From: Syntrophaceae bacterium
GTDB lineage: Bacteria; Desulfobacterota; Syntrophia; Syntrophales; Smithellaceae
DNA length: 39,279 bases
Direction: 5' to 3'
Assembly: GCA_009773315.1 (NCBI GenBank)
Contig: WRPE01000027.1
Span: forward strand, 1-39,279
Position 1 is the stretch's first letter, and every line of letters begins with the position of its first letter. The notes under the pieces were generated by a model. That model was not told the DNA's origin, searched no databases, and was given only the letters and a program-made list of their open reading frames with translations. Below are positions 6,351 through 33,282 of this stretch, piece by piece. Made by a program: the position numbers and the translations under genes.

Positions 6351-8567
6351 ATGAAATTGACATTGGTCGAACTGCTTAAAGACAGTGCTTACAAGCTCAC
6401 ACAATTCAGACCTGCTCAAATTCAAGCATTAGAAGCGCGCATTACGATGAAGGATTCGGGGAAGAATCCCACACCTTATGTTTCTTGCTTAGTGCGAGGC
6501 AAACCGATCAAGCTCACACCAGAAGAAGCTATTCGCCAGTTGTATGTGATGGTGCTCAAAGACGATCTGGGCTATCCCGTGGGCCGCATGGAATTGGAAT
6601 ACGGCGTCACGTTTGGCCGCGAAAAAAAACGCGCTGATATTTGCGTATTTGATGCTGACAAAACCACCACGCCGTATATCCTGGTAGAACTGAAAAAGCC
6701 CAAGCTTAAAGACGGCAAAGAACAGTTGAAATCATATTGCAACGCCACGGGCGCACCGATGGGTGTCTGGAGCAACGGCGACAGCATTTCGTACTATCAC
6801 CGCAAAGATCCAAACTACTTTGAAGACATCCCGGCCATTCCTTCAGCACATGAAAAACTTTCTGACATCCTGACCGCCAGGTGGACGATTGACGATCTTG
6901 TCAAAATGGACAAGCTTGTTAATCAGAAGAAATCACTCAAAGACTTAATTCTGGAAATGGAGGACGAAGTTTTAGCCAACGCTGGAGTAGATGTCTTTGA
7001 AGAGCTGTTCAAACTCGTTTTCACCAAGCTATATGACGAAATGGAAAGCGGACGGGACAAGAAACGACACCTTGTCTTCAAAAACTACGGGGACACCGAA
7101 ACCGAACTCAAGGCAAAAATTCAAGAGTTGTTCGACAAAGCGCGCGCCAAGTGGGACGGGGTATTCCCCGATGGCGCAAAAATTGATCTTACACCCAGCC
7201 ACCTGGCCGTGTGCGTATCGTCACTGGAAGGGGTAAAGCTGTTTAACTCCAACCTGGAAGTGGTGGATGAAGCTTTCGAGTATCTCATTAATAAAAGCAG
7301 CAAGGGAGAGAAAGGCCAGTATTTCACCCCGCGCTACGTAATTGATATGTGCGTAAAAATGCTCAACCCCCAGGAGCATGAAACCATGATCGACACCGCC
7401 GCCGGTAGCTGCGGTTTTCCTGTTCACACTATTTTCCATGTCTGGGAACAGATCATGAAAGACGAGGGGCTCGGTAAAAGCCACCTTTTTACTACCGAAA
7501 AGAAACCAGTCCGTTGTGAGACCTATGTGCAGCAAAAGGTATTTGCCCTCGACTTTGATGAAAAAGCAGTCCGCGTGGGCCGAACTCTGAACCTGATTGC
7601 GGGCGACGGGCAAACCAACGTGCTGCACCTCAACACGCTGGATTATGAACGCTGGGACGAGAAAACAAAAGATGAAGAATGGACGGATATCTATGGCGAA
7701 GGCTGGAAAAATCTTCGCAAACTGCGTGCGGCCAAGGATCAAAACCGCGATTTCTGTTTCGATATCCTCATGGCTAACCCGCCCTTTGCCGGTGACATCA
7801 AAGAGACCCGCATTCTTGCCAAATATGAACTGGCCCGCTCTGTTAGTCTGGACAAAATCAATAAAGTTGATGAGAACGACCCGAACATCGAGGATGTGAC
7901 CCGGCGCACACCGACCTTTCCGGAGTTCCTACGGGTCAGCCATGAGACAATCTTTAAAATGGCTGACGGCACGTTCCGCAAGGTTAAAATAAAAGACCAA
8001 AATACCGTCGGGCGCGATATCCTGTTTATCGAACGCAACCTGAGCTTCATCAAACCGGGCGGACGCATGGCTATTGTGTTGCCGCAAGGCCGTTTTAACA
8101 ATTCCAGCGATAAAGACATCCGCGAATATCTGGCTGACCATTGCCGCATCCTGGCCGTTGTGGGGTTGCACGGCAATGTGTTCAAGCCGCACGCCGGCAT
8201 CAAGACCAGTGTGATGTTTGTGCAAAAATGGGACGATAAGCTTTGCCCGAAAGTGGAAGACTACCCGATCTTTTTTGCCACCATGCAGGAACCAAGCAAG
8301 GACAATAGTGGTGATAAGATATATCTGAAACGCAAGGACGTGCAGCAAGCGGGCTGTATGGGAAACACGTCAGGCAAAAACGGTATTGCCGAAGTGGTTA
8401 ATCATTATGAAACCACGCCGCAAGACCTAAATGACTATGTACTGGACGACCACGAACACCTGATCGTCAAGCACGATCTGTTTAATCATCACGGTTTAAC
8501 AAAGGATGGCATTGCCGAGGCGTTTATTGAGTTTGCAAAAAAAGAAAGACTAAGTTTTTTTCTCTAG
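6351..8567 (+). CDS. Nuclease-methylase fusion of a restriction-modification system
   Basis: A 738-residue protein joining an HsdR_N-like nuclease domain to an HsdM-type adenine N6-methyltransferase. The PD-(D/E)xK pattern is Asp96 in RADICVF and Glu113-x-Lys115 in LVELKKPK. After a linker, the methylase has KGQYFTPRYV near 321-330, SAM motif I DTAAGSCGF at 348-356 and catalytic NPPF at 476-479. No DEAD-box translocase is present here or nearby, so this is not a classical type I HsdM. The layout recalls type IIB/IIG enzymes such as BcgI, where cleavage and methylation share one chain and a partner gives specificity. GAGGAAG precedes the ATG. The reading frame ends at TAG 8565, three bases after a T7 run; the next gene continues in the -1 frame. 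Activity and recognition site are not deducible. Confidence 0.85.
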   Translation: MKLTLVELLKDSAYKLTQFRPAQIQALEARITMKDSGKNPTPYVSCLVRGKPIKLTPEEAIRQLYVMVLKDDLGYPVGRMELEYGVTFGREKKRADICVFDADKTTTPYILVELKKPKLKDGKEQLKSYCNATGAPMGVWSNGDSISYYHRKDPNYFEDIPAIPSAHEKLSDILTARWTIDDLVKMDKLVNQKKSLKDLILEMEDEVLANAGVDVFEELFKLVFTKLYDEMESGRDKKRHLVFKNYGDTETELKAKIQELFDKARAKWDGVFPDGAKIDLTPSHLAVCVSSLEGVKLFNSNLEVVDEAFEYLINKSSKGEKGQYFTPRYVIDMCVKMLNPQEHETMIDTAAGSCGFPVHTIFHVWEQIMKDEGLGKSHLFTTEKKPVRCETYVQQKVFALDFDEKAVRVGRTLNLIAGDGQTNVLHLNTLDYERWDEKTKDEEWTDIYGEGWKNLRKLRAAKDQNRDFCFDILMANPPFAGDIKETRILAKYELARSVSLDKINKVDENDPNIEDVTRRTPTFPEFLRVSHETIFKMADGTFRKVKIKDQNTVGRDILFIERNLSFIKPGGRMAIVLPQGRFNNSSDKDIREYLADHCRILAVVGLHGNVFKPHAGIKTSVMFVQKWDDKLCPKVEDYPIFFATMQEPSKDNSGDKIYLKRKDVQQAGCMGNTSGKNGIAEVVNHYETTPQDLNDYVLDDHEHLIVKHDLFNHHGLTKDGIAEAFIEFAKKERLSFFL
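8555..8561 (+). promoter_or_regulatory. T7 run, possible -1 frameshift site
   Basis: Seven T bases are read as part of AGT TTT TTT CTC TAG in the methylase frame. Slipping back one base (T TTT TTT) would bypass the stop and continue as ...FFSLGPFDEARYRALLEG into the specificity gene. The heptamer fits the slippery pattern used for programmed -1 frameshifts. It is equally the kind of homopolymer where an indel mutation or sequencing error occurs. Confidence 0.4.
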
Positions 8568-8596
8568 GCCCTTTCGATGAAGCCCGGTATCGGGCG

Positions 8597-10030
8597 TTGT
8601 TGGAAGGGCTGGAAGCGAATGAAGTGTCGCTATCTGAAATGTATTCAGCAGCACGTATGGACTCAGGGTTTGCTGCTTTCCCTGAGAGACATTATTTAGA
8701 GAAAATTCTGAACCATAAAGATATCAAGCCAATTAGTATGATTTCAAAATATATCAGTTCTGGCCATACACCATACCTTCACAACGTAAAAGAAGGCAAA
8801 GCTGGTGATGTAGATTTTGTTACTGTTGAGTGCATTAGCGATTTGATGCTTCACAAAGATAAGTTAAAGAAGATTACAGCAAAGCAATTTGAAGAAGAGT
8901 TTAAAAGAAATCGTTTGCAAATCGGCGCAGTGCTATGCACAATTAAACGCCGAATTTGTAAAGCGTTTCCTATAACAAAGAATTATGGTGATGTTGCATT
9001 TAACCAAGACATTGCCTTCATTATTCCTACGCACGAGGTCAGCACCGTATATCTGGCAACATATTTGTGCTCTAGGGTTGGTCAGCTGTTTGCAAAACGA
9101 CAAATGACTGAGCAAATGAATCCATACATCAGTGTGGAAAATTTATTGGGATTGCCAATAGTTATTGCCAGCAAGAACTTTCAGAACAAAGTAGAATTGA
9201 TTTTTGAGCTAGCCGATAAATGTCGAACCAAGTCAATTTTTGAATATGCCGCTGCTGAAACACTGCTACTTAAAACGCTAGACATGACAAACTTTTCACC
9301 AAGTACAGAAGGAATTAATATCAAGACATTCAAAGATTCCTTTGCAGAAACAGGGCGTTTGGATGCGGAGTACTACCAACTGAAGTATGAAGAGACGATG
9401 GACAAGGTTAGGTCACAACCAAATGCGCGACTTATTGAATTGGCGAGTATCCAAAAATCCATCGAACCAGGAACGGAGGCATATAGTGACGATGAGAGTG
9501 GATTGCCATTTCTGCGCGTTGCCGATTACAGCAAGCATGGGATAACCAAGCCGCAAAAGTGCCTGAACGCAGCCTTTGTTGCTGAAAATTGTGACAAACT
9601 TGACGCATTGAAACCAAAGAAAAACACTATTCTGTTTTCAAAAGATGGCAGCGTGGGAGAAGCATACTGCTTGCGGGAAGATGCCAACTTCGTGACATCG
9701 GGGGCAATTTTACACCTTATGGTACGAAACACGGATGAGGTATTACCTGACTACTTAACCCTCGCTCTCAATTCCAAGTTGGTGAGAATACAAGCTGAAC
9801 GCGACGCAGGTGGTTCAGTTATCCTTCACTGGCGTGTTGATGAAATTCAAAATGTTATTGTGCCTTTGGTGGACATGTCCACACAAGAAGAAATTGCCGC
9901 TATGTTTCAAGAAAGTTTTGCCCTCAAAGCTGAAAGCGAACGATTGCTTGATATTGCCAAACGCGCTGTAGAGATTGCCATTGAGCAAGATGAAAATGCG
10001 GGCATGGCATACATTGAGATGAATTCATGA
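8597..10030 (+). CDS. Specificity (HsdS-like) protein with two recognition domains
   Basis: A 477-residue DNA-recognition protein for the adjacent nuclease-methylase. It shows two target-recognition modules in tandem. The first spans roughly residues 35-210 and the second roughly 250-460, introduced by GRLDAEYYQ, a phrase typical of HsdS repeats. Helical conserved regions lie between and after them. The frame is open upstream to 8531. Its upstream part (SLGPFDEARYRAL) reads as real protein, yet has no ATG and no clear ribosome binding site; TTG at 8597 is only the first available start. Translation therefore probably depends on the methylase gene, by coupling or by -1 frameshift. Base composition is more AT-rich than the methylase gene, common for exchanged specificity genes. 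Confidence 0.8.
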   Translation: MLEGLEANEVSLSEMYSAARMDSGFAAFPERHYLEKILNHKDIKPISMISKYISSGHTPYLHNVKEGKAGDVDFVTVECISDLMLHKDKLKKITAKQFEEEFKRNRLQIGAVLCTIKRRICKAFPITKNYGDVAFNQDIAFIIPTHEVSTVYLATYLCSRVGQLFAKRQMTEQMNPYISVENLLGLPIVIASKNFQNKVELIFELADKCRTKSIFEYAAAETLLLKTLDMTNFSPSTEGINIKTFKDSFAETGRLDAEYYQLKYEETMDKVRSQPNARLIELASIQKSIEPGTEAYSDDESGLPFLRVADYSKHGITKPQKCLNAAFVAENCDKLDALKPKKNTILFSKDGSVGEAYCLREDANFVTSGAILHLMVRNTDEVLPDYLTLALNSKLVRIQAERDAGGSVILHWRVDEIQNVIVPLVDMSTQEEIAAMFQESFALKAESERLLDIAKRAVEIAIEQDENAGMAYIEMNS

Positions 10031-10040
10031 GGCTCATGAA

Positions 10041-10796
10041 ATGACGGATGAAGAAACGGTTGATGAAATTCTGCAGGGAAGCCTGAGAATCCGCCAGAGC
10101 AAACGCGGTTACCGTTTTAATCTGGATTCACTCATTCTGGCGCATTTTGTTTCCTTGAAGTCTCGTTCCGTCAATATGGATCTGGGTTGCGGCAACGGCA
10201 TCATCGCGCTGGTTTTGGCCAGACGCTATCCCTCAACGCACTGGACAGGCCTGGAAATTCAAGAAGGGCAGGCATCTCTTTCGTGTCGGAATGTCGAGCT
10301 CAATGGTTTGGAAAAAAGAGTGAGTATTATTCTCGGCGATGCCAGGGAAGTCAAAAGAAATTTTACAGCAAATTCGTTTGATAATGTTATCTTCAACCCG
10401 CCCTATCGGAAATTGTCGTCCGGCCGGATTAATCCTCTTTTGGAAAAAGCGGTCGCACGTCACGAGATCAAAGGATCACTTTCGGATTTTCTGGCGGCGT
10501 CTAAATCTCTTCTCAAGGCCACAGGCCGGGTTTTTACCATTTATCCGGCGAAGCGATTGGTGGAATTGATTGTCTTGTTTCGTAAAAACGATATTGAACC
10601 CAAAAGAATGAAGCTGGTATTTTCCGATGCCGCATCCGATGCGGAGTTTGTTCTGGTGGAGGGACGAAGCGGCTCGCGCGAAGAACTGAAAATGGAGTCG
10701 CCGCTTTATATTTACGAAGAACCCAAAAAATACACGCAAGACATGAAAAAAATATTCAGCGAGCTTGCTTCTCCTCCCGCAGCCTGCGGCGGCTGA
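10041..10796 (+). CDS. trmN6: TrmN6-like tRNA adenine N6-methyltransferase
   Basis: A 251-residue SAM-dependent methyltransferase of the YfiC/TrmN6 type, which methylates N6 of A37 in tRNA-Val. SAM motif I DLGCGNGI is at 47-54 and the N6-adenine motif NPPY at 119-122. The N-terminal GYRFNLDSLILAHF is characteristic of this subgroup. GAGG precedes the ATG by 8 bases, just after the hsdS stop. The 3' end overlaps the convergent dciA gene by 41 bases. The tRNA substrate is inferred from the family. Confidence 0.82.
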   Translation: MTDEETVDEILQGSLRIRQSKRGYRFNLDSLILAHFVSLKSRSVNMDLGCGNGIIALVLARRYPSTHWTGLEIQEGQASLSCRNVELNGLEKRVSIILGDAREVKRNFTANSFDNVIFNPPYRKLSSGRINPLLEKAVARHEIKGSLSDFLAASKSLLKATGRVFTIYPAKRLVELIVLFRKNDIEPKRMKLVFSDAASDAEFVLVEGRSGSREELKMESPLYIYEEPKKYTQDMKKIFSELASPPAACGG

Positions 10797-11256
10797 TTTC
10801 CGTTTTCATGACCCGCTGCACTATCTCGGCTAACTCCCGATCCGCCAGCCCTTCCGTACATTCGGCAATCATCTTTTTATCTCTTTCCTTGAGGACAATC
10901 TTTTCTACGTCTGCGGCATTGTACCCGGAATTTTTGGGAGCAGGTCTGTATCCGACGGTGAAGTGAATCTCCTTGACGGGTGTCTTTCCGGCAAGTTCGT
11001 TGATTTTTTGCCGGATGTCTTCTTTCATGAAATGCAGTTGCTGCACCCAGACGGAGGAGGTTGTTTTAACAAACAGGGTTCCCGCACGCCAGCCGTCAGG
11101 TTGGGTTTGTGCGGCAATCTGCGCGCCCACCGCTTTCGGCCAGAGTTTGAACAGGACGTTTTCTTCCAACTTGGCGGCCATGCCTCTTTTCTTAAAAGTG
11201 GAAAACAAAATTTCGCCAATGGATTGTAAACGTGCCTGGAATTGTTTTTTTCTCAT
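10756..11256 (-). CDS. dciA: DUF721 / DciA-like protein
   Basis: A 166-residue DUF721 protein; members called DciA help load the replicative helicase DnaB in bacteria lacking DnaC. The recognisable core is KLWPKAVGAQIAAQT followed by GTLFVKTTSSVWVQQL and a helix FMKEDIRQKINEL, then a basic C-terminal tail. The start is taken at ATG 11256 (MRKKQFQARLQ) instead of the in-frame start at 11301, because the family begins about here; neither start has a strong ribosome binding site. It lies downstream of gpmI on the same strand with a 138-base gap, and its 3' end overlaps trmN6. Confidence 0.82.
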   Translation of the reverse strand: MRKKQFQARLQSIGEILFSTFKKRGMAAKLEENVLFKLWPKAVGAQIAAQTQPDGWRAGTLFVKTTSSVWVQQLHFMKEDIRQKINELAGKTPVKEIHFTVGYRPAPKNSGYNAADVEKIVLKERDKKMIAECTEGLADRELAEIVQRVMKTEISRRRLREEKQAR

Positions 11257-11394
11257 GGCTTTAATGTGACACAATTTGACGGGATGATCAAGGTGAATCA
11301 AAAATCAGCAGAGGCACTTGCGCGGATTATTCTTTTTTTAGTTCTTGCGCAAAAATGTCAAAGGTTCGTTGATTAAACGTGGCCTGCATTTTCC

Positions 11395-12978
11395 TTACTC
11401 CGCGAAGATTTTATCTCCTTCTCCATAAACCAGCATCCGGTAGGTTTTTTCAATCCGGTCCCAGTTTTCTTCGCGATCCATCGACCAGTAGCGTCCGATG
11501 ACGGATGCCACCCTTCCCAGTTGCAAAGCCAGACATTTTTCTTCCACCTGTTGAATATAGCGGGCGCCGCTTTCCGGCAGTTCGCCGCGTCTGCCCAGCA
11601 TTCCATGAATAAAGAGGCGGGAGATGCCTTGTTGTTTGGCCATGTCCATTAAGGCGAAAAGGTGTTCAATGGAACCGTGCGAGCTGAAAAAAGAGACAAT
11701 TCCCATCACATGCAGCGCCGTGCCTTTTTGTTTAGCCATCCTCATGACGTTGATGAAAGCCTGGTTTCTGTAAAAGTCACGGCTAAGGATAGCCTGATCA
11801 ATATTGAGGCGGTCGGAATAAATCCGGCGGCCCGCGCCGATGTGTAAATGCCCCGCCTCGGAATTGCCCACGGTTTGTGGCGGCAGTCCTACGGCGACGC
11901 CTGATGCGGCAAGCTTTGCCAGGGGATAGGTCTTGATCAATCTGTCCATAACCGGCGTTACGGCGCGCGCGATCAGATTGCCGTTTTCGGCATCGCTCAG
12001 TCCCCAGCCGTCCAGTATCATCAGCAATAAGCGTTTAACGGGTGCGAAGGAATGTCTATTTTGTTCGATGAGCGAAAACCCGGTCATGGAGGTGGGTACA
12101 GGCAAGCCGAGAATATCCATTGCCGTCGGAGCGATGTCGGTCAGCGCTCCCTGGGGTTTCAGGGTCAATATTTGATCCGCGTGCAGTAAGATAAAGGGCA
12201 CGGGGCTATCCGTATGACCGGTATCAACACCGCCGTCGGGGTAAAGCCATTTTTCAACCGTGCCGTGATCGGCTGTGACCATCACGGCGATTTTCTGCCG
12301 CAGCGCCTCCTCAATGAGAAGGCCCGCATTCTGATCTACCGCCTGAATCGCACGGAGCACCGCCGGCTCATTTTCGATATGACCGACAACATCCACATTC
12401 GGGTAATTCACAACGATAAAATTGCAGCATGGATCTTTAATCTTGGCGAGGGCTGCGTCAGTGATTTCCCCGATGGACATTTCCGGGGCTTCATCAAACA
12501 GCCTGACATCTTTGCGTGTCGGGATGACGATTCTTTCTTCACCAGGCAGCGGGTCCGATTTCTTGCCGTTGAAAAAGAAGCTGACATGAACGGCTTTTTC
12601 TGCTTCCGTTATTTTGGCCTGGGTTAAGCCCTGCATGGCGATGACATCGCTTAATGTGTCGGAAAGAATGCCCTGAGGCTTAAAAGCGACCTCAACGTTT
12701 AACCCTTTCTGATACTCAATCATGGTTGCAAAGTTGACGTTGATGCTTTTATCGATTGGGAATTCACGGAAACTTTGTTCCGTAAGACTGCGAGTTAATT
12801 CAATTTCACGTTCACCGCGAATATTATAGAAAATAACCGAATCGCCCGCACGGATTCTTCCCACGGGTTCATTTTGATGGTTGACCAACACCAGTGGGAG
12901 AAGGGTTTCGTCTTCCTTACCCTGATCGTAGGCGTTGCGGACTGCTTGGGACATGGGGAATTTGATTTCAGGGCACAT
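11395..12978 (-). CDS. gpmI: Circularly permuted cofactor-independent phosphoglycerate mutase
   Basis: A 527-residue protein with all blocks of 2,3-bisphosphoglycerate-independent phosphoglycerate mutase (3-PG to 2-PG), but in permuted order. Residues 10-305 correspond to the usual C-terminal part: AGDSVIFYNIRGER (Arg54, Arg57), ITEAEKAVHVSFFFNG (Lys128), NYPNVDVVGH (Asp196, His200), TADHG (Asp237, His238), GHTDSPVPF (His255) and MTGFSLI. A short linker leads to the usual N-terminal part: LLLMILDGWG (Asp323), GNSEAGHLHIGAG (nucleophile Ser373), His434, IGRYWSMDRE (Arg496, Arg502) and YRMLVYGEG at the end. Metal ligands and most substrate residues are kept. The substrate loop usually DGRD reads GRRG (462-465), losing the two aspartates. 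New termini fall inside the transferase domain. Start ATG 12978, or Met9, without a strong ribosome binding site. Whether it is active is unknown. Confidence 0.93.
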   Translation of the reverse strand: MCPEIKFPMSQAVRNAYDQGKEDETLLPLVLVNHQNEPVGRIRAGDSVIFYNIRGEREIELTRSLTEQSFREFPIDKSINVNFATMIEYQKGLNVEVAFKPQGILSDTLSDVIAMQGLTQAKITEAEKAVHVSFFFNGKKSDPLPGEERIVIPTRKDVRLFDEAPEMSIGEITDAALAKIKDPCCNFIVVNYPNVDVVGHIENEPAVLRAIQAVDQNAGLLIEEALRQKIAVMVTADHGTVEKWLYPDGGVDTGHTDSPVPFILLHADQILTLKPQGALTDIAPTAMDILGLPVPTSMTGFSLIEQNRHSFAPVKRLLLMILDGWGLSDAENGNLIARAVTPVMDRLIKTYPLAKLAASGVAVGLPPQTVGNSEAGHLHIGAGRRIYSDRLNIDQAILSRDFYRNQAFINVMRMAKQKGTALHVMGIVSFFSSHGSIEHLFALMDMAKQQGISRLFIHGMLGRRGELPESGARYIQQVEEKCLALQLGRVASVIGRYWSMDREENWDRIEKTYRMLVYGEGDKIFAE

Positions 12979-13105: not shown

Positions 13106-13145
13106 ATGATAAATGCCGCAAAAGTATTCAAGGATAGGTTTTATT

Positions 13146-13538
13146 ATGCAGGCTATGCTACCGGGAAAAGAAAATAAGCACGAGAGTTTGTGCGAAGAAC
13201 TATTGCGGGAACGAGCGGCTGTTTTGAGCCGGGCCGGTTTTGCCGTGGAAGATGCGCTGGAAGTGCTCATAAAGATCAACCGGCAGATTGAACAAAAGGT
13301 CGAGCATCTGCGAATGGTTCAAAACCCTGGCTCCGGTCAGGGAAATATGAATAATAAACAGTCGATATTTGAAGAAATTAATATGATTATCGATCAATTT
13401 AATGCAGCATGTCAAAAAGCCGAAATCCAATATTATTATTTGATTGTGACTCGTGAAGCCCTGGGGCTCAGAAGGCATGAAACGGTTCGGCAGCTCTACC
13501 AGATTCCTTCGAAAAAGAAAAAGATGCAGGCTATTTGA
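13146..13538 (+). CDS. Unrecognised small coiled-coil-like protein
   Basis: A 130-residue protein I do not recognise. It is hydrophilic and mostly helical: a Glu/Arg-rich N-terminal helix (ESLCEELLRERAAVLSRAG), a second helix with ALEVLIKINRQIEQKVEHL, a glycine-asparagine linker, then an Ile/Tyr-rich helix and a basic C-terminal tail (PSKKKKMQ). There is no signal peptide, cysteine motif or enzyme motif. The ATG at 13146 follows AAGGATAGG by 7 bases. Its stop overlaps the pcm start by one base (TGATG), so the two are probably co-transcribed. It occupies the place surE has in the enterobacterial surE-pcm-nlpD order, but does not look like SurE. Confidence 0.65.
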   Translation: MQAMLPGKENKHESLCEELLRERAAVLSRAGFAVEDALEVLIKINRQIEQKVEHLRMVQNPGSGQGNMNNKQSIFEEINMIIDQFNAACQKAEIQYYYLIVTREALGLRRHETVRQLYQIPSKKKKMQAI

Positions 13539-22266: not shown

Positions 22267-24177
22267 ATGCAAATGAAGGACTATCAGCAATATATCAATA
22301 CGGATGAGATTTATCTGTTCAACATCGGAGAGGCGCAGCAGGCTTATGCCACCTTCGGTTGTCACCCGGTGGATGAACTCGGCATGCACCGCTTTCTGGT
22401 ATGGGCGCCCAATGCGCGGGATGTCAGCGTTGTGGGGAATTTCAATGGCTGGGATGCTTCAAAAAACCGGATGGAACGGCTCAATACCGGCGTGTTTGTC
22501 GCGTTTGTGCCGGGTCTTCGGAACGGCGACTGTTATAAGTATGAAATAAAAGGCTACGACGGCCGAATTGTGCTCAAGGCGGACCCGTTCGCCTTTCACG
22601 CCGAGGTTCGCCCGGCGACCGCCTCGAAGGTCTGGCGCCTGGGCGGCTACCATTGGCGCGATGCGGAATTTCTGCAGCGGCGCTCGGAAGAAAACGCTCT
22701 CGGCCGGCCCATGACCATCTACGAAATGCACATCGGCTCATGGCGCACACGCGAAGGGTATCACTTTGCGAATCTGCGGGATGTGGCCGATGAGCTTTCT
22801 GAATATCTTGTTGAGATGGGATTTACGCACGTGGAGATCATGCCCGTTACCGAATACCCGTTAGACGATTCATGGGGATATCAGGTTACCGGCTATTACG
22901 CGGTGACAAGCCGTTTCGGTACACCACAGGATTTTATGTATTTTGTGGATACGATGCACGCAAAAGGCATCGGGGTCATTATGGACTGGGTGCCTGCCCA
23001 TTTTCCCAAGGATGCACACGGCCTTGCCCGGTTCGACGGCACATGCCTTTATGAACATCAAAACCCGATGCAGGCCAATCACCCGCAATGGGGCACACTA
23101 ATATTCAACTATGGCCGCCCCGAGGTTGTCAGTTTCCTGGTTTCCAGCGCCATGTATTTCTTTGACGTTTACCACATCGACGGCATTCGCGTCGATGCGG
23201 TCACGTCGATGCTCTATCTGGATTATGCCCGCAATGAAGGCGAATATGTGCCCAACGAGGATGGGGGCAATATTGACCATTCCGCGGTGGCTTTTCTGCA
23301 AAAACTGAATTCCGTGATATTGACCAGGTATCCCGGCACGCTCACCATTGCGGAAGAATCGACGTCGTATCCGCTGATGACCAAGCCGCCCTATAACGGG
23401 GGACTCGGCTTTGTATTCAAGTGGAATATGGGTTTTATGCATGATACGCTCAAGTATATGTCGATGGATCCCTTTTTCCGTCATGATCATCATGACAAAC
23501 TGACGTTTTCGATGTGCTATGCCTTTACTGAAAACTTTATTCTGCCTTATTCGCATGACGAGGTTGTCCACGGCAAGAAATCTCTACTCAATAAGATGTA
23601 TGGCACTTATGATGAGAAGTTCGCGTCCATGCGTGCCTTACTCGGTTTTATGTATGCGCATCCCGGGAAAAAACTGTTGTTTATGGGAAGCGAGTTCGGG
23701 CAGTTCATCGAATGGGATCATCAAAAGCCGCTCGACTGGTTTCTGCTTACGCATGAAAGGCACCGCCAGATGCAACAATATGTGAAGGCGCTCAATGCTT
23801 TTTACACCGCATGCCCCGCCCTTTATCAGATCGAAGATAATTGGGGGGGATTTACCTGGCTGAATGTGGACGAAGCGCAGCACAGCGCGATCAGCTTTAT
23901 GCGCCGCGGCGACGGGCCCGGTGACGTCTGTATTTGCGCTTTCAACTTCACGCCGGTGCCGGTGGAACATTTTGTGATCGCGCTGCCGGGCCATGGGCGG
24001 CTGCGAGAGACGTTCAGCAGCGATAATGTGTTGTTTGGCGGAAGCGGTCATCATCACAAGGCGATCATCACGGCATCCCACGAAGGATTTGCCGGACAGC
24101 CTTACAGAGCTGCGATTAATCTGCCGCCGCTTACGGCCGTATATTTTGATTATGATGAAAAGGGATCGGTAGGGTGA
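22267..24177 (+). CDS. glgB: 1,4-alpha-glucan branching enzyme
   Basis: A 636-residue GH13 branching enzyme that makes alpha-1,6 branches in glycogen. A CBM48 domain (about 35-120, FLVWAPNARDVSVVGNFNGW) precedes the barrel. Catalytic residues: Asp310 in DGIRVDAV, Glu363 in IAEESTSYP and Asp431 in YSHDEVVHGK. The C-terminal beta domain is complete. It is of the short form without an extra N-terminal module. It starts 37 bases after malQ and its stop is one base before the glgA start, so malQ-glgB-glgA are likely co-transcribed. Confidence 0.96.
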   Translation: MQMKDYQQYINTDEIYLFNIGEAQQAYATFGCHPVDELGMHRFLVWAPNARDVSVVGNFNGWDASKNRMERLNTGVFVAFVPGLRNGDCYKYEIKGYDGRIVLKADPFAFHAEVRPATASKVWRLGGYHWRDAEFLQRRSEENALGRPMTIYEMHIGSWRTREGYHFANLRDVADELSEYLVEMGFTHVEIMPVTEYPLDDSWGYQVTGYYAVTSRFGTPQDFMYFVDTMHAKGIGVIMDWVPAHFPKDAHGLARFDGTCLYEHQNPMQANHPQWGTLIFNYGRPEVVSFLVSSAMYFFDVYHIDGIRVDAVTSMLYLDYARNEGEYVPNEDGGNIDHSAVAFLQKLNSVILTRYPGTLTIAEESTSYPLMTKPPYNGGLGFVFKWNMGFMHDTLKYMSMDPFFRHDHHDKLTFSMCYAFTENFILPYSHDEVVHGKKSLLNKMYGTYDEKFASMRALLGFMYAHPGKKLLFMGSEFGQFIEWDHQKPLDWFLLTHERHRQMQQYVKALNAFYTACPALYQIEDNWGGFTWLNVDEAQHSAISFMRRGDGPGDVCICAFNFTPVPVEHFVIALPGHGRLRETFSSDNVLFGGSGHHHKAIITASHEGFAGQPYRAAINLPPLTAVYFDYDEKGSVG

Positions 24178-24178
24178 C

Positions 24179-25660
24179 ATGAACAAAGAACTGCAAATAA
24201 TCATGGCGGAAAAAAATAGGGAAGTTCTGCCCGGGATCCTTATGACCGGAGCGGAATGTGCGCCGTTTGCTAAAACGGGAGGGCTGGCGGATGTGATCGG
24301 AACGTTGGCGAGAGAGCTGAAAGCACTGGGATTCGATATCCGCCTGATGCTGCCGTTTCATCGCGTCATCAAGGACCAATACCGGGAGCGTGTACGGCAC
24401 ATTGTCAGCTTCAGCGTGGATATCGGCCGGCATTCTGAATACGTGGGTGTTGAACAGTACGACTGGGATGGCATACCGGTTTACTTTATCGACAATGAAC
24501 ATTACTTCGGTCACACCATCTACTGCGGCGGCAATTTCGAGGGCGAACAGTATGCGTACTTTTCCCGCGCGGTTATCGAAGCGATACCTGTAATTGGTTT
24601 TGATCCGGATATTATCCATGTCAATGACTGGCACACGGCGATGATCCCCATGCTGCTTAAGACCCAATACGATTTGCATCCGCAGGGGAGGTGCAAGACC
24701 GTTTTGTCGATCCATAACCTGGGTTATCAGGGGCGCTTTGATTTTGGTTACACGTCGTATCTGCTGGATATCGAGGGCCGATATGATCATTCGGACTATA
24801 TCGAGTTTCATGGCGGCGCTAATTATTTGAAGGCCGGTATCGTTTTTGCGGACAAGCTGGTCACCGTCAGCCCGACATACGCGCAGGAGATACGGACGCC
24901 GCATTATGGTGAGGGGCTGGACGGGATACTGGAAACACGCGCGGACGACCTGATCGGCATCCTCAACGGCATTGACACCATAGCCTTTAATCCGGCAGCC
25001 GACCCGCTGATCCCCTATCCGTTCGACGCCGCATCGCTTTCGGGAAAGCAGAAAAACAAAGAGGCCCTGATTGCCGAACTCGGGCTCAAGATCGGCCCTG
25101 CTATGCCGGTAATCGGAATGGTGACCCGATTGACAAAACAAAAAGGGATTGATCTCGTGCTGAGCGTATTCGACGAGATGATGGACGCGAGTCCGGGTTT
25201 TGTGCTGATCGGGACGGGGGATAAGGAATATGAACATTTCTTCCAAGGGGTTGCCCATCGGACGGACAACCGGGCGATAGGCCTGATGGAGTTTAACGAC
25301 CCGCTTGCTCATCGCATATATGCGGGAAGCGATTTCTTCCTGATGCCTTCCATGTTTGAACCTTGCGGCCTCTCTCAGATGATCGCTCTCCGATACGGCA
25401 CACTGCCAGTTGTTCGCGCGACGGGCGGACTGAAGGATACGGTTGCTCCCTATAACGAATATACGGACGAAGGCAACGGGTTTTCTTTTGAAAACTATAA
25501 CGCACACGATATGCTCCATACCGTGCGGTACGCACTCAATATTTATTCGAACAAAGAGCGCATGAACTCGCTTCGAAAGCGGGCCATGAACCAGAATTTG
25601 AGTTTTCAAAAGAGCGCGCTGGCCTATGCGAAACTGTATCTTTTGACGACCGGACAATGA
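24179..25660 (+). CDS. glgA: Glycogen synthase, ADP-glucose type
   Basis: A 493-residue GT5 glycogen synthase transferring glucose from ADP-glucose to the growing chain. The ADP-glucose site KTGGL is at 32-36 in AECAPFAKTGGLADV. The C-terminal Rossmann half carries GMVTRLTKQKG and MPSMFEPCGLSQMIALRYG, where the Glu is the conserved GT-B residue. The ATG at 24179 lies directly after the glgB stop, with a weak GTAGGG ribosome binding site. A long open frame on the opposite strand here is a codon-bias shadow. It works with GlgC (33282, minus strand) and GlgB. Confidence 0.96.
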   Translation: MNKELQIIMAEKNREVLPGILMTGAECAPFAKTGGLADVIGTLARELKALGFDIRLMLPFHRVIKDQYRERVRHIVSFSVDIGRHSEYVGVEQYDWDGIPVYFIDNEHYFGHTIYCGGNFEGEQYAYFSRAVIEAIPVIGFDPDIIHVNDWHTAMIPMLLKTQYDLHPQGRCKTVLSIHNLGYQGRFDFGYTSYLLDIEGRYDHSDYIEFHGGANYLKAGIVFADKLVTVSPTYAQEIRTPHYGEGLDGILETRADDLIGILNGIDTIAFNPAADPLIPYPFDAASLSGKQKNKEALIAELGLKIGPAMPVIGMVTRLTKQKGIDLVLSVFDEMMDASPGFVLIGTGDKEYEHFFQGVAHRTDNRAIGLMEFNDPLAHRIYAGSDFFLMPSMFEPCGLSQMIALRYGTLPVVRATGGLKDTVAPYNEYTDEGNGFSFENYNAHDMLHTVRYALNIYSNKERMNSLRKRAMNQNLSFQKSALAYAKLYLLTTGQ

Positions 25661-25762
25661 GCAGCATGATTTTCGTTGACAGGCGTTTCGTCGTCACATA
25701 AAGAGTCAGCCATTGCAGCGGGAGATTCGGATATTCCCAATTTTGCAATCGAAGGAATACGT

Positions 25763-28198
25763 GTGAAAAACGGAATTTCAAAAATTAAGGGAATCATCGA
25801 GGGCAAATTAAAACGATATTACGGCCGCTCGCTCGAGAATGCCTCGGATGAGGAAATGTTCCAGGCGGTGGCGATGAGTATTCGCGACATCATCCTCGAG
25901 CGGGGGGTCAAGGCCAACGAAGATATTGAAAAGAAGGGGCTCAAAAAACTCTGTTATCTTTCGGCCGAGTTTTTGATGGGCCGGGCGCTCATCAATAATA
26001 TGATCAATCTCGGTTTGCTTGAAGATTACCGGGCTGTCATGACGGAGATCGGTTACCCCTTTGAAAAGCTTGAAGAGCAGGAAAATGAAGCGGCTCTCGG
26101 CAACGGAGGCCTCGGCCGGCTGGCCGCGTGTTTTCTTGATTCGCTTTCGACGCTGAACCTGCCTGTAACGGGCTACGGCATCCGCTACGAATATGGTATG
26201 TTCTGCCAGCGCATCGTAGACGGTAAACAGACGGAAGTGCCGGACGACTGGACGGCAAAAGGGGATATCTGGGAAATCGAGCGGCGCGAAGAACAGATGG
26301 AAGTGCGTTTTGAGGGCACGGTTGAAGAAGTCTGGACGGACGACGGCCTGACGATCGCGCATAAAAACTATCAGACGGTGATTGCGGTGCCTTACGATAT
26401 GCCGGTCATCGGCTATGAAAGTCATACACCGGCGAGGCTCCGTCTATGGCGTGCGGAATGTCCCACCGTATTTGATCTTCATTCTTTTAACAAGGGTGAC
26501 TTTGTCTACATGTTGCAGCAGAAAGAGCTTGCCGAGTCCATATCCAAAGTGCTGTACCCTAAGGACAACCATATTACCGGAAGAATGCTGCGCCTCAGAC
26601 AGTATTATTTCCTGGCCTCCGCAACGATGCAGTGCATGGTGCGCGAACATAAGAAGAACTATGGTGATGTACGCACGCTGCCCGAAAAAATCGTGATCCA
26701 GATCAATGATATGCATCCGGCGTTGGCGATCCCGGATCTGATGCGCATCCTGATCGACGAAGAAGGCCTCGGGTGGGACGACGCATACGGTATCGTGAGT
26801 CGCGTATTCAACTACACCAACCACACGGTCATGCAGGAGGCCCTGGCGGCCTGGCCCGAGCAGTTATTCAAGTCTATGCTGCCGCGTGTGTACGCGATTA
26901 TTTCCGAAATCAACGAACGCATCAACCAAAAACTCAGCAAAGCATTTCCGGAAGACCGGGACAAAATATCTCATATGTCCATTATCGCTTACGATGAGAT
27001 TCGCATGGCCAATCTGTGCGTCGCGGTATGTCATGTTGTCAACGGCGTTTCCCAGCTTCACGGCAAAATCCTGAAGACCCGCACCTTCCGCGATTTCTAT
27101 GTGATGTTCCCCGGGAAGTTTACGGCCATTACCAACGGTATTACGCAGAGACGATGGCTTGCAGCGGCCAATCCGGCCCTGTGCACGCTGATTGCCGATC
27201 ATATCGGCGATAAATTCATCCGCGACTACCACGAGTTGGTACGGTTGAAGCCGCTGGTGAATGATCAGCGCTTTCTGGCCGATTTTGCGAGTGTCAAGCA
27301 GCAAAACAAGCGACGCCTCGCCGAACATGTTTATAAAAAACAAGGAATTACACTTGATGCCGACTCGGTTTTTGATGTGCAGGCCAAGCGGTTGCACGAA
27401 TACAAGCGTCAGCTTTTAAAAGTGTTGCACATTTTATATCTGTACAATCGCTTTACCGGGAACGAGGGGTATTCTTTACCCCGGCCTGTAACGTTCCTGT
27501 TTGCCGCCAAGGCCTCGCCCGCGTATCGGAGAGCCAAGAGCATCATCCGTCTCATTAACGCGGTGTCCGCTCTTGTGGAAGCTCATCCGCGCACCAGGGA
27601 CAGCATAAGGGTTGCTTTTCTGGAGAACTACAATGTCTCTCTGGCCGAACTGCTGATTCCCGCGGCGGACATCAGCGAACAAATATCAACGGCGGGTTGC
27701 GAAGCCTCCGGAACAGGCAACATGAAATTCATGCTCAACGGCGCCGTGACGCTTGGAACGATGGATGGCGCAAACATAGAGATATTTGATGCGGTGGGAG
27801 AAGACAATATCTTTATCTTCGGCGCTCGCGCGGAGGAGATTGCCTGGATGGAGACGGAAAATCTCTATCAGCCGAAAAATTATTTTGACCGGAATGCGGA
27901 TATTCGCGACGCCGTTTCACGCCTGGTGGATGGAACGCTGCCGGGTGTCGGCAAAGACCGGTTTCAGGAAATTTACCAATCGCTGTTATTTGGAGACTAT
28001 GACCGTGCGGACAAATACTTTCTGCTCTATGATTTTGACGCTTATCGCGCCGCGTTTGAAAATATACTGGCCGCCTACACCGATACGCCCGCCTGGACGA
28101 GAAAGGCCGCGGTTAATACGGCAAGTGCGGGATACTTCAGCGTTGACCGGACGATAGACGATTATAACCGGATGATCTGGGGGTTGGATTCGATCTGA
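25763..28198 (+). CDS. glgP: Glycogen/maltodextrin phosphorylase
   Basis: A PLP-dependent GT35 phosphorylase releasing glucose-1-phosphate from glycogen or maltodextrin. It is 811 residues from the GTG at 25763. LSAEFLMGR, ALGNGGLGRLAACFLDS and FNYTNHTVM are family motifs. The PLP lysine is Lys655 in EASGTGNMKFMLNG. The frame is open back to TTG 25676, which lacks a ribosome binding site; GTG 25763 has GAAGGA 6 bases upstream and starts where the family usually does, so it is preferred. It follows glgA closely in the cluster. Its product feeds the phosphohexomutase at 30275. Confidence 0.93.
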   Translation: MKNGISKIKGIIEGKLKRYYGRSLENASDEEMFQAVAMSIRDIILERGVKANEDIEKKGLKKLCYLSAEFLMGRALINNMINLGLLEDYRAVMTEIGYPFEKLEEQENEAALGNGGLGRLAACFLDSLSTLNLPVTGYGIRYEYGMFCQRIVDGKQTEVPDDWTAKGDIWEIERREEQMEVRFEGTVEEVWTDDGLTIAHKNYQTVIAVPYDMPVIGYESHTPARLRLWRAECPTVFDLHSFNKGDFVYMLQQKELAESISKVLYPKDNHITGRMLRLRQYYFLASATMQCMVREHKKNYGDVRTLPEKIVIQINDMHPALAIPDLMRILIDEEGLGWDDAYGIVSRVFNYTNHTVMQEALAAWPEQLFKSMLPRVYAIISEINERINQKLSKAFPEDRDKISHMSIIAYDEIRMANLCVAVCHVVNGVSQLHGKILKTRTFRDFYVMFPGKFTAITNGITQRRWLAAANPALCTLIADHIGDKFIRDYHELVRLKPLVNDQRFLADFASVKQQNKRRLAEHVYKKQGITLDADSVFDVQAKRLHEYKRQLLKVLHILYLYNRFTGNEGYSLPRPVTFLFAAKASPAYRRAKSIIRLINAVSALVEAHPRTRDSIRVAFLENYNVSLAELLIPAADISEQISTAGCEASGTGNMKFMLNGAVTLGTMDGANIEIFDAVGEDNIFIFGARAEEIAWMETENLYQPKNYFDRNADIRDAVSRLVDGTLPGVGKDRFQEIYQSLLFGDYDRADKYFLLYDFDAYRAAFENILAAYTDTPAWTRKAAVNTASAGYFSVDRTIDDYNRMIWGLDSI

Positions 28199-28221
28199 AA
28201 TCTAAAAGGTTTGTGGGGGCG

Positions 28222-30219
28222 ATGTTGATCAATTACAGAAATGAAATGCTGCACGACTCGTCGCTGTATAGGTTCCGTGATCCTGTGGGGGCTTTGGCCA
28301 CCTGTACCCCTGTTACCCTGCGTATCCGGACGAGTTTGGAGAAGGTGGACAGTGTGTATCTGTGCCTGTTCAGCGAGGGATTCCGCGAGGACCATCTCAT
28401 GCGGCGGTCGGACGAATATTGGCAAATTGATATCACAGCGCCGTCGGTTCCCGATGTGTACTGGTATTATTTTACGGTCAATCTTGGAGGTAAGCTTTGC
28501 TATTACGGCGCTGGGGGAAGACGCACCGGAGGCATCGGTTGTGTCTATACCGATCCCCCCCCTGCGTATCAACTGACTGTTTACGATGCCGGTTTTACGG
28601 TACCTGAGTGGTTTCAAAAAAGCGTAATGTATCAGATATTCCCCGATCGTTTCCGACGCAGCGATGATCAGACGGCGCAGAAGGGCATGGCCTATCACCG
28701 TTCCAAAGGCCGCCGCGTCTATTATCATGAAAAGTGGGACGAAACGCCGCTTTTCACCCCGCTGCCCGGCGAAGCAGCCTATGAACCGTGCGATTACTTT
28801 GGTGGCACGCTCCAGGGCATCGAGGCGTCTCTGGACTATCTGCAAAGCCTTGGTGTGAATGTGGTCTATTTGAATCCGATATTTGAGGCGGCGTCCAACC
28901 ATCGTTACAACACCGCCGACTACTTCAGCATCGATCCGGTGCTGGGCAGAGAGGCGGATTTTGAGTCATTGTGCCGAAAGGCGGATGACCTGGGCATCCG
29001 CATCATACTGGACGGCGTGTTTTCCCACACCGGCTCTGACAGTATCTATTTTAACCGGGAGGGTGCTTATGAAAGCCAGGGTGCCGCAAATACTCAGGAT
29101 TCGCCTTATTACCCATGGTACATGTTTGAACACTATCCCGACCAATACCAATGCTGGTGGGGATTTAAATCGCTGCCTGAGATCAATGAGGGCGAACCCG
29201 GCTGGCAGCTTTTTGTCATTACGGACGAGAACAGCGTCATCCGGCACTGGCTTAAAGCGGGCGCGAAAGGATACCGTCTCGATGTGGCCGACGAATTGCC
29301 GGACGACGTGCTGGCGATGATCTATACCGCTGCGAAACAGACACAGCCCGAAGCCGTGGTGATTGGCGAGGTCTGGGAAGACGCGACAACGAAATACAGT
29401 TACGGTGTCAAGCGCCGTTATGCGCTGGGGGGCATTCTCGATTCCGTCATGAATTATCCGCTGCGCTACGCTGTGATCGGTTTTTTGAAGGGGATGTCCG
29501 ATGCCTGCGACCTGAAATATTTTTTGGTGGATCAGGCGGCGAATTACCCCGGACCCATGTACTACGCGCTGACCAATCTGCTTTCGTCCCACGATGTGGA
29601 GCGCGTGCGCACCGCCTTGAGCGCGCGCATCGATCCGCATAAAATGTCCCGGGAACAGCAGGCCTCGTTCATCCTCAGCGACAGCCAGAACAAAAAAGGT
29701 GCCAGGCGTCAGCGCCTGGCCGTGGTCCTGCAATATTGTCTTCCCGGCGTGCCCTGCGTTTATTACGGAGATGAAAAAGGTATGACCGGTTTTCTCGATC
29801 CCTTCAACAGAGGGACTTTTGCGGAAGCGCCGTATGATCTGACGCCGGATTACCGTCAATTGGCGCGGTTGCGCAAATCGGCGGACGCGCTCATGACGGG
29901 TCATGTTGTGTTCTTTGCCCCCGATGCCGATTGTCTCGGCGTCCTGCGCTACGTGGTCGGAGGGCGTGATGCCTTGGGCCGGCAGGCCGTGGATGGCGTT
30001 TATTTTGTGGCGGTCAATCGTTCGGAAACACGCAGGCTCGTCGTGTTCGATTTTTTGAGCAAAAATTCACTGTTTGCCGAGGCACATCAAAGGACCTTGC
30101 GCTCTATGTTAAACGGTTCATTCACCTGTCAACTGAGCCGGCAGCAGTACGAGCTTCGCGATGCCCTGCTGGAAATTACGCTGGAGGGTTTGAGCGCCGT
30201 GTGGCTCAAGATAGGCTGA
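28222..30219 (+). CDS. GH13 alpha-glycosidase (neopullulanase/cyclomaltodextrinase-like)
   Basis: A 665-residue alpha-amylase-family enzyme. An N-terminal beta domain (about 1-125, CBM34-like) precedes a GH13 barrel beginning SVMYQIFPDRFRR. The catalytic triad is Asp354 in GYRLDVADEL, Glu383 in VIGEVWED and Asp458 in LLSSHDVER. ILDGVFSHTG is conserved region I. It has no signal peptide, so it acts in the cytoplasm on maltodextrin, cyclodextrin or glycogen fragments. The exact substrate cannot be told from sequence. The ATG at 28222 is used; a GTG three codons earlier (28213) is possible. Confidence 0.88.
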   Translation: MLINYRNEMLHDSSLYRFRDPVGALATCTPVTLRIRTSLEKVDSVYLCLFSEGFREDHLMRRSDEYWQIDITAPSVPDVYWYYFTVNLGGKLCYYGAGGRRTGGIGCVYTDPPPAYQLTVYDAGFTVPEWFQKSVMYQIFPDRFRRSDDQTAQKGMAYHRSKGRRVYYHEKWDETPLFTPLPGEAAYEPCDYFGGTLQGIEASLDYLQSLGVNVVYLNPIFEAASNHRYNTADYFSIDPVLGREADFESLCRKADDLGIRIILDGVFSHTGSDSIYFNREGAYESQGAANTQDSPYYPWYMFEHYPDQYQCWWGFKSLPEINEGEPGWQLFVITDENSVIRHWLKAGAKGYRLDVADELPDDVLAMIYTAAKQTQPEAVVIGEVWEDATTKYSYGVKRRYALGGILDSVMNYPLRYAVIGFLKGMSDACDLKYFLVDQAANYPGPMYYALTNLLSSHDVERVRTALSARIDPHKMSREQQASFILSDSQNKKGARRQRLAVVLQYCLPGVPCVYYGDEKGMTGFLDPFNRGTFAEAPYDLTPDYRQLARLRKSADALMTGHVVFFAPDADCLGVLRYVVGGRDALGRQAVDGVYFVAVNRSETRRLVVFDFLSKNSLFAEAHQRTLRSMLNGSFTCQLSRQQYELRDALLEITLEGLSAVWLKIG

Positions 30220-30274
30220 CTAAACGGCGTAGCGTGCAGAATAGGGAAGCAGAGCAAAACCATACCGGGAGATC

Positions 30275-31969: not shown

Positions 31970-33282
31970 TAGATGGATGTGCTGCCAAACATGATATCCT
32001 GTCCCATCATCTCCGGTGTCACCAGAACGACACCCCCTTCACTGATATGAAAACGTTTTGCATCCTCGGCATGGTCTTCACCAATGACGGTATTATCAGG
32101 AATGAGCGTTCCCTTGTCGATAACGGCGTGGATAATTCGGCAGTTTTTGCCGATGTAAACCCCGGGCAATATGACGCTGTCCTTGACCAGGCTGCCGGTT
32201 TCGATACGGCTTGCAGAAAAAATGACAGAGCGCTTTACATGCGCACCGGCAATGATACAGCCGCTGCTGATCAGTGAATCGATGGCTACGCCGCGCCGCC
32301 CTTCATCATCAAAGACAAACTTCGCCGGCGGAAGTTGCACCTGGTAAGTCCAGATCGGCCAGTTTTGATTATACAGGTTCAATTCCGGCTCAATGGAACA
32401 GAGTTCGATGTTTGCCTCCCAATAGGCATCCAGAGTGCCTACGTCGCGCCAGTAGGCCATCTTGCCTTGCTCGTTACGGTAAGGATACGCTTTTGCCAGA
32501 CTGTTGGGAATGGCTCGCGGGATGATGTTCTTGCCAAAATCGTGGGAAGACATTTCATCTTTGGCATCTTCGATCAAAGTGTCGTACAGGAAACGGGTCG
32601 AGAAGACATAAATGCCCATGGAGGCCAGGGCTGTATCGGGCTTGTCGGGCATGGCTTCAGGATGGGATGGTTTCTCGGTGAAGCGGGTGATGCTCAGGTT
32701 TTCATCGACTGACATGACGCCGAACTCACGCGCTTTCTCGCGTGGGACTTCGATGCAGGCTACCGTCATGTCCGCCTTCGATCTAACGTGCTGCATCAGC
32801 ATATTCGAATAATCCATGGTGTAGATATGATCGCCGCCAAGCACCAGCACATATTTCGGCGAGTGGCGGTGAATGATATCGAGGTTCTGGTAGAGGGCGT
32901 CAGCCGTTCCGCGGTACCATTCTTTGCTCATACGCTGCTGGGCCGGAATAATCTCTACAAACTCGCCGATCTCGGCGCGCAGGAAACTCCAGGCGTGCTG
33001 TAAATGGCGGATCAGCGAATGCGATTTATACTGTGTCAGCACGCCAACACGGCGCAAGCCGGAGTTGACGCAGTTCGACAGAGTGAAATCGATCATACGG
33101 TATTTGCCTGCGAAAGGGACTGCCGGCTTGGCACGCCATTTTGTCAGTTCTCCCAGGCGGGAACCCTCGCCACCGGCCAGCAACAGCACCAGTGTCTGGC
33201 GTGTCACTTCGGTCGAAATCTTGGTTTCTATAGGGCTATAAATGTTCAGGAGATTCGACTGGCCTTCATTTCTGTTGATCAT
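31966..33282 (-). CDS. glgC: Glucose-1-phosphate adenylyltransferase
   Basis: A 438-residue ADP-glucose pyrophosphorylase, the committed step of glycogen synthesis. The nucleotide-binding and allosteric loop [24 protein letters not shown] is at about 34-57 (this motif is quoted in parts: [20 protein letters not shown]). [11 protein letters not shown] and [11 protein letters not shown] are typical, and the C-terminus is a left-handed beta-helix ([24 protein letters not shown]). GGGGGTGA lies 8 bases before the ATG. It faces the rest of the cluster and has its own strong promoter, so synthesis and the malQ-pgcA unit can be controlled separately. The usual family is regulated by sugar phosphates; effectors are unknown here. 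Confidence 0.96.

Follow-up and report, generated by a model that had tools for sequence, protein, structure and literature searches.

Cofactor-independent phosphoglycerate mutase (iPGM, or GpmI), a textbook enzyme, interconverts 3-phosphoglycerate (3-PG) and 2-phosphoglycerate (2-PG), and every turnover requires its two domains to open and close. In the canonical protein the transferase domain is inserted within the phosphatase domain; in the reference structure 1ejj we take the phosphatase domain to comprise approximately residues 1-76 and 311-511, and the transferase domain residues 77-310. The archaeal-type cofactor-independent mutase, ApgM, belongs to the same superfamily. According to the passages cited from PubMed Central article PMC5382265, the two iPGM domains are joined by two hinge peptides. 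The subject of this report is a circularly permuted iPGM homolog, encoded on the reverse strand at positions 11395..12978 of a 39,279-nucleotide stretch of DNA from a Syntrophaceae bacterium (positions 1 to 39,279 of contig WRPE01000027.1, assembly GCA_009773315.1), the whole of which is termed the window below.

The gene comprises 527 codons plus stop, opens with ATG at position 12978 and continues in a single uninterrupted frame to 11395, as an initial annotation made from the sequence had described; the ten motifs named there all occur in the translation, in the order stated. Its proposal that the usual GpmI order is reversed was borne out by the search it had suggested for two non-collinear profile matches, since both TIGR01307 and 1ejj match in two non-collinear pieces. 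The window protein scored 469.1 bits with TIGR01307 (an NCBIfam equivalog model with a cut-off of 330.65) over two stretches, the best of which aligned residues 10-304 with profile positions 214-504, and the Pfam models iPGM_N and Metalloenzyme each matched in two stretches as well. In the phmmer comparison with 1ejj, residues 315-522 corresponded to 4-211 (190.7 bits, i-Evalue 3.3e-55) and residues 11-304 to 218-509 (205.0 bits, i-Evalue 1.5e-59), values that exclude chance as the source of the matches. Only positions 1-3, 212-217 and 510-511 of the 511 in 1ejj were covered by neither match; the entire enzyme is thus present, with its halves swapped. Homology extends across both the phosphatase and the transferase domains, each half is complete, the old ends are joined, and the new ends are neighbors in the parent chain. 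The window protein is, with near certainty, a natural circular permutant of iPGM.

From the new N-terminus, the protein begins with the second part of the transferase domain (residues 1-101; 12676..12978), as delimited by the 1ejj alignment and by the start of the structural match, at which model residue 102 is equivalent to residue 311 of 5vpu. This is followed by the larger part of the phosphatase domain (residues 102-304; 12067..12675), which contains Lys128 and the metal ligands Asp196, His200, Asp237, His238 and His255, and then by a linker between the old C- and N-termini (residues 305-314; 12037..12066), as defined by alignment. The smaller part of the phosphatase domain (residues 315-387; 11818..12036) carries Asp323 and the nucleophile Ser373, equivalent to Asp12 and Ser62 of 1ejj, and the first part of the transferase domain (residues 388-527; 11398..11817), now C-terminal, ends just after YGEG. 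All of these segments lie on the reverse strand. The domain nesting is inverted: a continuous phosphatase domain (about residues 102-387) is flanked by two transferase pieces, and both inter-domain connections survive.

The linker, which the initial annotation had put at about ten residues, is exactly ten in the window protein, with a median of 11 and a range of 7-59 among 63 distinct full-length permuted proteins (see below). Much longer linkers were seen in two permuted iPGMs, at locus L030 (6001-7722; 59 residues) and in genome G378 (contig C36, 13546-15252). The new ends had been placed in the transferase domain just past the YGEG helix, a position on which the alignment, the structural model and the ends of the 63 proteins agree. 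In these proteins the chain starts 2-15 residues before the equivalent of 1ejj residue 218 and stops 0-15 residues after that of residue 211, so that the break falls at one place in all 63, to within 15 residues. The full-length model, computed with 55 sequences, was confident (mean predicted local distance difference test score, pLDDT, 90.8; predicted template modeling score, pTM, 0.87) and has the new ends at the loop that links the YGEG helix to the next one in the parent chain; in the model these are helices 506-518, near the C-terminus, and 8-18, near the N-terminus. With sequential structure aligners, model residues 7-306 were superposed on residues 214-505 of the Staphylococcus aureus iPGM 4nwj (1.7 A over 291 residues, Z 22.2), and residues 102-307 on 311-514 of 5vpu (1.6 A over 203 residues, Z 22.4).

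A search for the same order in related genomes, also suggested initially, yielded the 63 permuted proteins, which are distributed over two phyla: in the order of the window's bacterium, in two other lineages of its phylum and in the WOR-3 phylum. In all of them the canonical succession (phosphatase N-part, transferase, phosphatase C-part) is reversed. Six peptide patterns taken from the window protein, which reach close relatives only, were scanned against a collection of 84,980 species genomes and hit 39 loci. Of these, three were cut (L036, L038 and L042) and one lay in a WOR-3 record; locus L034, 93% identical, was among the nearest. Within a set of 59 genomes, comprising the window's own (G000) and 58 relatives, 35 carry the full-length permuted gene, and two more (G042 and G017) carry a copy cut by a contig end. 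Of 395 genomes sampled from the phylum, 79 gave a match with an E-value of 1e-60 or better. The permuted form is present in 16 of these, among them members of two families (f40 and f22) that lie outside the window's order; it was found in five of eight genomes of the order of f40 and in two of three genomes of the class of f22. In the WOR-3 phylum, seven of the 147 genomes contain the permuted form, with E-values of 1e-70 or better. Plasmid records gave 40 matches, and the ten matches listed were all in two pieces at <40% identity. PADLOC gave no match for the permuted protein or for the macro-domain protein encoded beside it in many genomes.

The permuted gene is conserved across independent genomes under purifying selection: the ratio of nonsynonymous to synonymous substitution rates (dN/dS) was 0.14-0.23 in all six of the close pairs computed without gaps, one of them over the first 1500 bases only. 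Trees were built from 83 rows for both halves together and from 81 rows for each half alone, two very divergent canonical rows being excluded from the latter; these were quick trees without bootstrap, and the program warned of long branches. In every case the permuted proteins fell on one side of a single branch with a Shimodaira-Hasegawa-like approximate likelihood ratio (SH-aLRT) support of 100, and the stem of this clade is long (1.45 changes per column). A fusion of two different iPGMs was considered and rejected: both halves yield the same clade and thus give no sign of such a fusion, although near-identical parents would be indistinguishable. A frameshift or a pair of adjacent genes was likewise rejected, given the single uninterrupted frame and the conserved copies. 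The permutation probably had a single origin, in which a gpmI gene was duplicated in tandem or fused and then trimmed at both ends; both domain connections and all of the phosphoryl-transfer residues would have survived the rearrangement.

Nine residues contact 2-PG or 3-PG in the Bacillus stearothermophilus enzyme, namely S62, H123, R153, D154, R185, R191, R261, R264 and K336, in the passage cited from PMC3886921, while the roles assigned to the metal ligands follow in part the passage cited from PMC5382265 on the Caenorhabditis elegans enzyme. Eight of the nine contacts (S62, H123, R153, R185, R191, R261, R264 and K336) are retained in all 63 permuted proteins, as are D12, D403, H407, D444, H445 and H462; the serine nucleophile and the ligand set for two metals are therefore complete throughout. 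The remaining contact, Asp154, is replaced by Gly in all 63, together with a change of Asp151 to Gly and of residue 155 to Glu, whereas Asp151, Asp154 and Thr or Val155 are found in all 20 canonical proteins of the alignment. In the window protein this loop, DGRD(T/V) at 1ejj positions 151-155, has become GRRGE (residues 462-466; 11581..11595, reverse strand), with Arg464 preserved as the equivalent of R153. A second loop, SDGGVHS at 118-124, is rebuilt as SF(F/Y)SSHG, in which residue 120 is Phe in 54 proteins and Tyr in nine, and residues 121 and 122 are Ser and residue 124 is Gly in all 63; the window protein has SFFSSHG (residues 429-435; 11674..11694, reverse strand), in which His434 preserves H123.

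Positions were classed as switched when the canonical residue had at most one exception in 18 canonical proteins and another residue occupied the place in at least 95% of the permuted ones. By this measure, 12 of 62 positions were switched in the transferase domain versus 8 of 91 in the phosphatase domain. The canonical counterpart was sampled across the phylum at E 1e-60 or better in the 63 of the 79 matching genomes that lack the permuted form, giving 64 loci, or 63 distinct places (one occurred twice); canonical order was assigned by script from the profile matches in 62 of the 64 loci, and the other two (L153 and L174) are canonical by their match ranges. The DGRD motif was present in all 63 canonical places and the GRRGE or SSHG motif in none. 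Among these 63 places and the 63 permuted proteins there was no unpermuted protein with the GRRGE or SSHG loops and no permuted one with Asp154. Permutation and acceptor-side change in the active site are thus fully linked within the sample.

In the mechanism proposed, which follows that of iPGM, a small phosphorylated hydroxy-acid would bind between the domains, and these would close over it. The phosphate of the substrate would pass to Ser373 between two metal ions, held at sites formed by Asp196, His200 and His255 and by Asp323, Ser373, Asp237 and His238, and an acceptor held by the conserved set of Arg, His and Lys residues would then take the phosphate back. Invariant residues support the predicted chemistry of the first half-reaction, but they offer no such support as to which acceptor is used. 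Glycolytic flux would be carried by ApgM, at times by a canonical iPGM or dPGM.

The complement of other phosphoglycerate mutases was analyzed in the same genomes. The window's genome carries a second, canonically ordered iPGM on another contig (locus L001; contig C23, 8366-9922, reverse strand), which is very divergent: in the tree it shares a stem of 3.09 changes per column with the canonical iPGM of genome G021 and is distant from the permuted proteins as well as from the remaining canonical ones. It also encodes an ApgM, with 500.6 bits against the TIGR00306 cut-off of 320 bits. A match to canonical iPGM accompanies the full-length permuted gene in 14 of the 35 genomes and is absent from 21; among the latter, dPGM exceeds its cut-off in four and ApgM in 19. 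Most (32 of 35) of the genomes with the full-length gene have an ApgM over the cut-off, the other three (G002, G005 and G015) showing broken pieces only. All 11 of the further permuted genomes also have an ApgM over the cut-off, in G149 and G441 at no more than 342-368 bits; G042 and G017, in which the permuted gene is cut, have none. The permuted gene was not found as the sole phosphoglycerate mutase in any complete genome, since G002, G005, G042 and G017 are incomplete assemblies. Given the prevalence of ApgM, the housekeeping mutase activity need not fall to the permuted enzyme. Glycolysis seems able to proceed without it, so that it could have a different function, although a role as a mutase would also be compatible with this pattern.

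The interpretation preferred here, to which a probability of about 0.6 is assigned, is that a natural circular permutant of iPGM has been kept as a working enzyme, whose substrate or step has probably shifted from the interconversion of 3-PG and 2-PG. In terms of its parts, activity as an iPGM-type phosphotransferase appears quite likely on the basis of the conserved residues, and a shift of substrate or step away from plain interconversion is given about an even chance; it is favored by the replacement of Asp154 in all 63 proteins and by the two rebuilt transferase loops. Because Asp154 is lost family-wide, phosphoglycerate mutase activity can only be presumed. A bolder version, put forward tentatively and with somewhat less than even expectation, would see in these proteins a new family of inside-out iPGMs, in which permutation came with a change of reaction to another small phospho-acid while ApgM carried glycolysis. 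The main competitor is a plain phosphoglycerate mutase in permuted form, with neutral or compensatory loop changes and with Glu466 performing the work of Asp154. In its favor, the metal ligands and eight of the nine contacts are kept in all 63 proteins, the equivalog score lies well above the cut-off, and 21 of the 35 permuted genomes lack a canonical match, with a dPGM over the cut-off in just four of the 21. The invariable loss of Asp154 with both loops, the long stem of the permuted clade, and the other mutases kept alongside (ApgM in 19 of those 21 genomes, canonical iPGM in 14 of the 35) speak against it, and it is regarded as a serious but somewhat less probable alternative. Distinctly unlikely is a phosphatase or one-way transferase that takes phosphate onto Ser373 without returning it, in the clean-up of a small phospho-acid metabolite: the phosphatase site is intact and the changes are concentrated in the transferase loops, but the arginines that would hold the acceptor, which a plain phosphatase does not need, are invariant. 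We lean towards a shifted substrate or step, with the plain mutase ranked next and the phosphatase last.

Several observations weigh against the preferred interpretation of a permutant with a shifted substrate or step. The absence of a canonical match from 21 of 35 permuted genomes is one; two of these (G002 and G005, both incomplete assemblies) also lack an ApgM over the cut-off, and the ApgM matches of G053, G149 and G441 are weaker (342-368 bits) and may represent a paralog. Ordinary mutase activity may persist, given the eight retained contacts and the invariant Glu that follows the lost Asp. Asp154 is presumably the acid/base, whereas the passage cited for it supports a substrate contact only. 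With respect to the fold, the sequential structure aligners match iPGMs to the first ~300 residues only, as is expected for a permutation, and the second half folded alone gives a poor model (pLDDT 63.2), which fits its being pieces of two domains; the claim of a whole-fold permutation consequently rests on sequence and on the confident full-length model. An assembly rearrangement, which the initial annotation had named among the findings that would overturn it, or a chimera of two gene pieces, is refuted by the 63 distinct conserved copies in many assemblies, on contigs of up to 354,768 bases. Purifying selection and the recovery of the same single clade from both halves reduce its probability to a negligible level. 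A role in an ADP-ribose- or NAD-linked pathway, exerted jointly with a downstream macro-domain protein, was also considered. In 45 of 57 loci (45 of 49 excluding f22, f40 and WOR-3), the permuted gene is immediately followed on its own strand by a macro-domain gene (PF01661), whose match starts between 16 bases upstream and 268 bases downstream of the permuted gene's end. By genome, the two are adjacent in 34 of the 35 that have the permuted gene at full length and in the two that have a cut copy. The 12 loci without an adjacent macro gene are the window's own, L024, L028, L030 and all eight of the f40, f22 and WOR-3 loci. In the window, what is left is a 20-codon remnant (11327..11389, reverse strand), in which the first codons are joined to the 3' end; compared with L004, 465 bases have been deleted in frame, and the junction shows an overlap of ten bases. 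The gene is full-length in L004, L034 and L005, and no macro match occurs anywhere in the window's genome, which nevertheless keeps the permuted gene. Conversely, 10 of the 22 relatives without a permuted gene retain a macro homolog at at least 56% identity. Together with the whole-block synteny that accounts for part of the adjacency, these exceptions make a shared pathway improbable.

The surroundings of the permuted gene in the window's order often form a conserved block, with a divergent open reading frame (ORF6), PCMT, an M23/LysM peptidase, CarD, PIN/TRAM and IspDF on one side, and the macro-domain and DciA genes on the other. In the window, a DciA-like gene (PF05258) occupies 10756..11301 on the reverse strand. 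On the forward strand are a divergent neighbor without a Pfam match (13113..13538), found in the same place in 17 of the 39 stretches compared, and the PCMT gene (PF01135; 13535..14191), which starts the conserved divergent block. In five relatives (G028, G023, G026, G030 and G050) the macro gene and the PCMT block are present and the permuted gene is absent, which indicates that the gene is dispensable. The neighbors in f40 and f22 differ, including dehydroquinase II, DctP, TetR with RND efflux, and Lon (ten proteins, two of them without a match), and no conserved partner was evident among those viewed in these two families. Several of the WOR-3 genomes (L133, L135, L136 and L137) share gene neighbors of the permuted gene as one block. 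Elsewhere in the window, positions 6351-10030 (forward strand) encode a type I restriction-modification methyltransferase whose N-terminal part resembles HsdR_N; a specificity subunit comes next. Positions 22267-33282 contain glycogen or alpha-glucan genes, for a branching-enzyme-like protein, a phosphorylase, a phosphohexomutase and a nucleotidyltransferase with GlmU/GlgC-like domains.

A permutant in which the nesting of the domains is exchanged and both connections are kept offers a test of how important chain order is for coupled domain motion, and it also bears on how domain insertions arise. The linkage of the altered loops to the permuted form (63 of 63 permuted proteins and none of the 63 canonical places) suggests that rearrangement and new function may have come together. 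Since the window protein passes the GpmI equivalog cut-off, automatic annotation would hide the family; databases may thus include members that have gone unnoticed, and a mutase may be attributed to genomes that lack one.

Compared with canonical GpmI (1ejj), the permuted protein is alike over nearly the full length of both domains, with 38% identity over the first half, and has the nucleophile, the metal ligands and eight of the nine substrate contacts in common with it; it differs in its swapped halves, inverted nesting, loss of Asp151 and Asp154, and rebuilt loops 118-124 and 151-155. The resemblance to ApgM is weak (TIGR00306, residues 174-267, 35.6 bits, far under the 320-bit cut-off), and ApgM is encoded by separate genes in the same genomes. 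Phosphopentomutase (DeoB, 4n7t) shares the phosphatase core only (residues 104-311, Z 11.2, 172 residues at 2.9 A). The cap domain of DeoB differs from that of iPGM, and we know of no permutation in DeoB. For the canonical enzyme, a kcat/Km of about 7e4 per M per s is given for Synechocystis iPGM in the passage cited from PMC12077085.

The initial annotation knew of no described permuted member of the family, and none was found in the open-licence PubMed Central literature, searched by permutation terms and by organisms, which is weak evidence of absence. The survey of bacterial phosphoglycerate mutases in PMC2964296, which in the part cited lists three archaeal-type iPGMs for Syntrophus aciditrophicus, has no word starting with 'permut' in its main text. 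The permutations named in the passages cited from PMC6957218, PMC11046441, PMC5570346 and PMC9487903 concern other proteins. Among these is PGM3, a phosphohexomutase with a natural circular permutation, in which, according to the passage cited (PMC5570346), about 60 residues are transposed within domain 1 and the active site is left in place. In contrast to the permuted iPGM, it belongs to the unrelated alpha-D-phosphohexomutase superfamily and shows no inverted domain nesting. Natural circular permutants are also mentioned among chorismate mutases and glutathione synthetases (passages cited from PMC2395249 and PMC2876114), the same kind of event in other proteins, while an alkaline phosphatase permutant in a reference of PMC2395249 seems, by its title, to be an engineered Escherichia coli enzyme. 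Natural circular permutation itself is thus already known in other folds.
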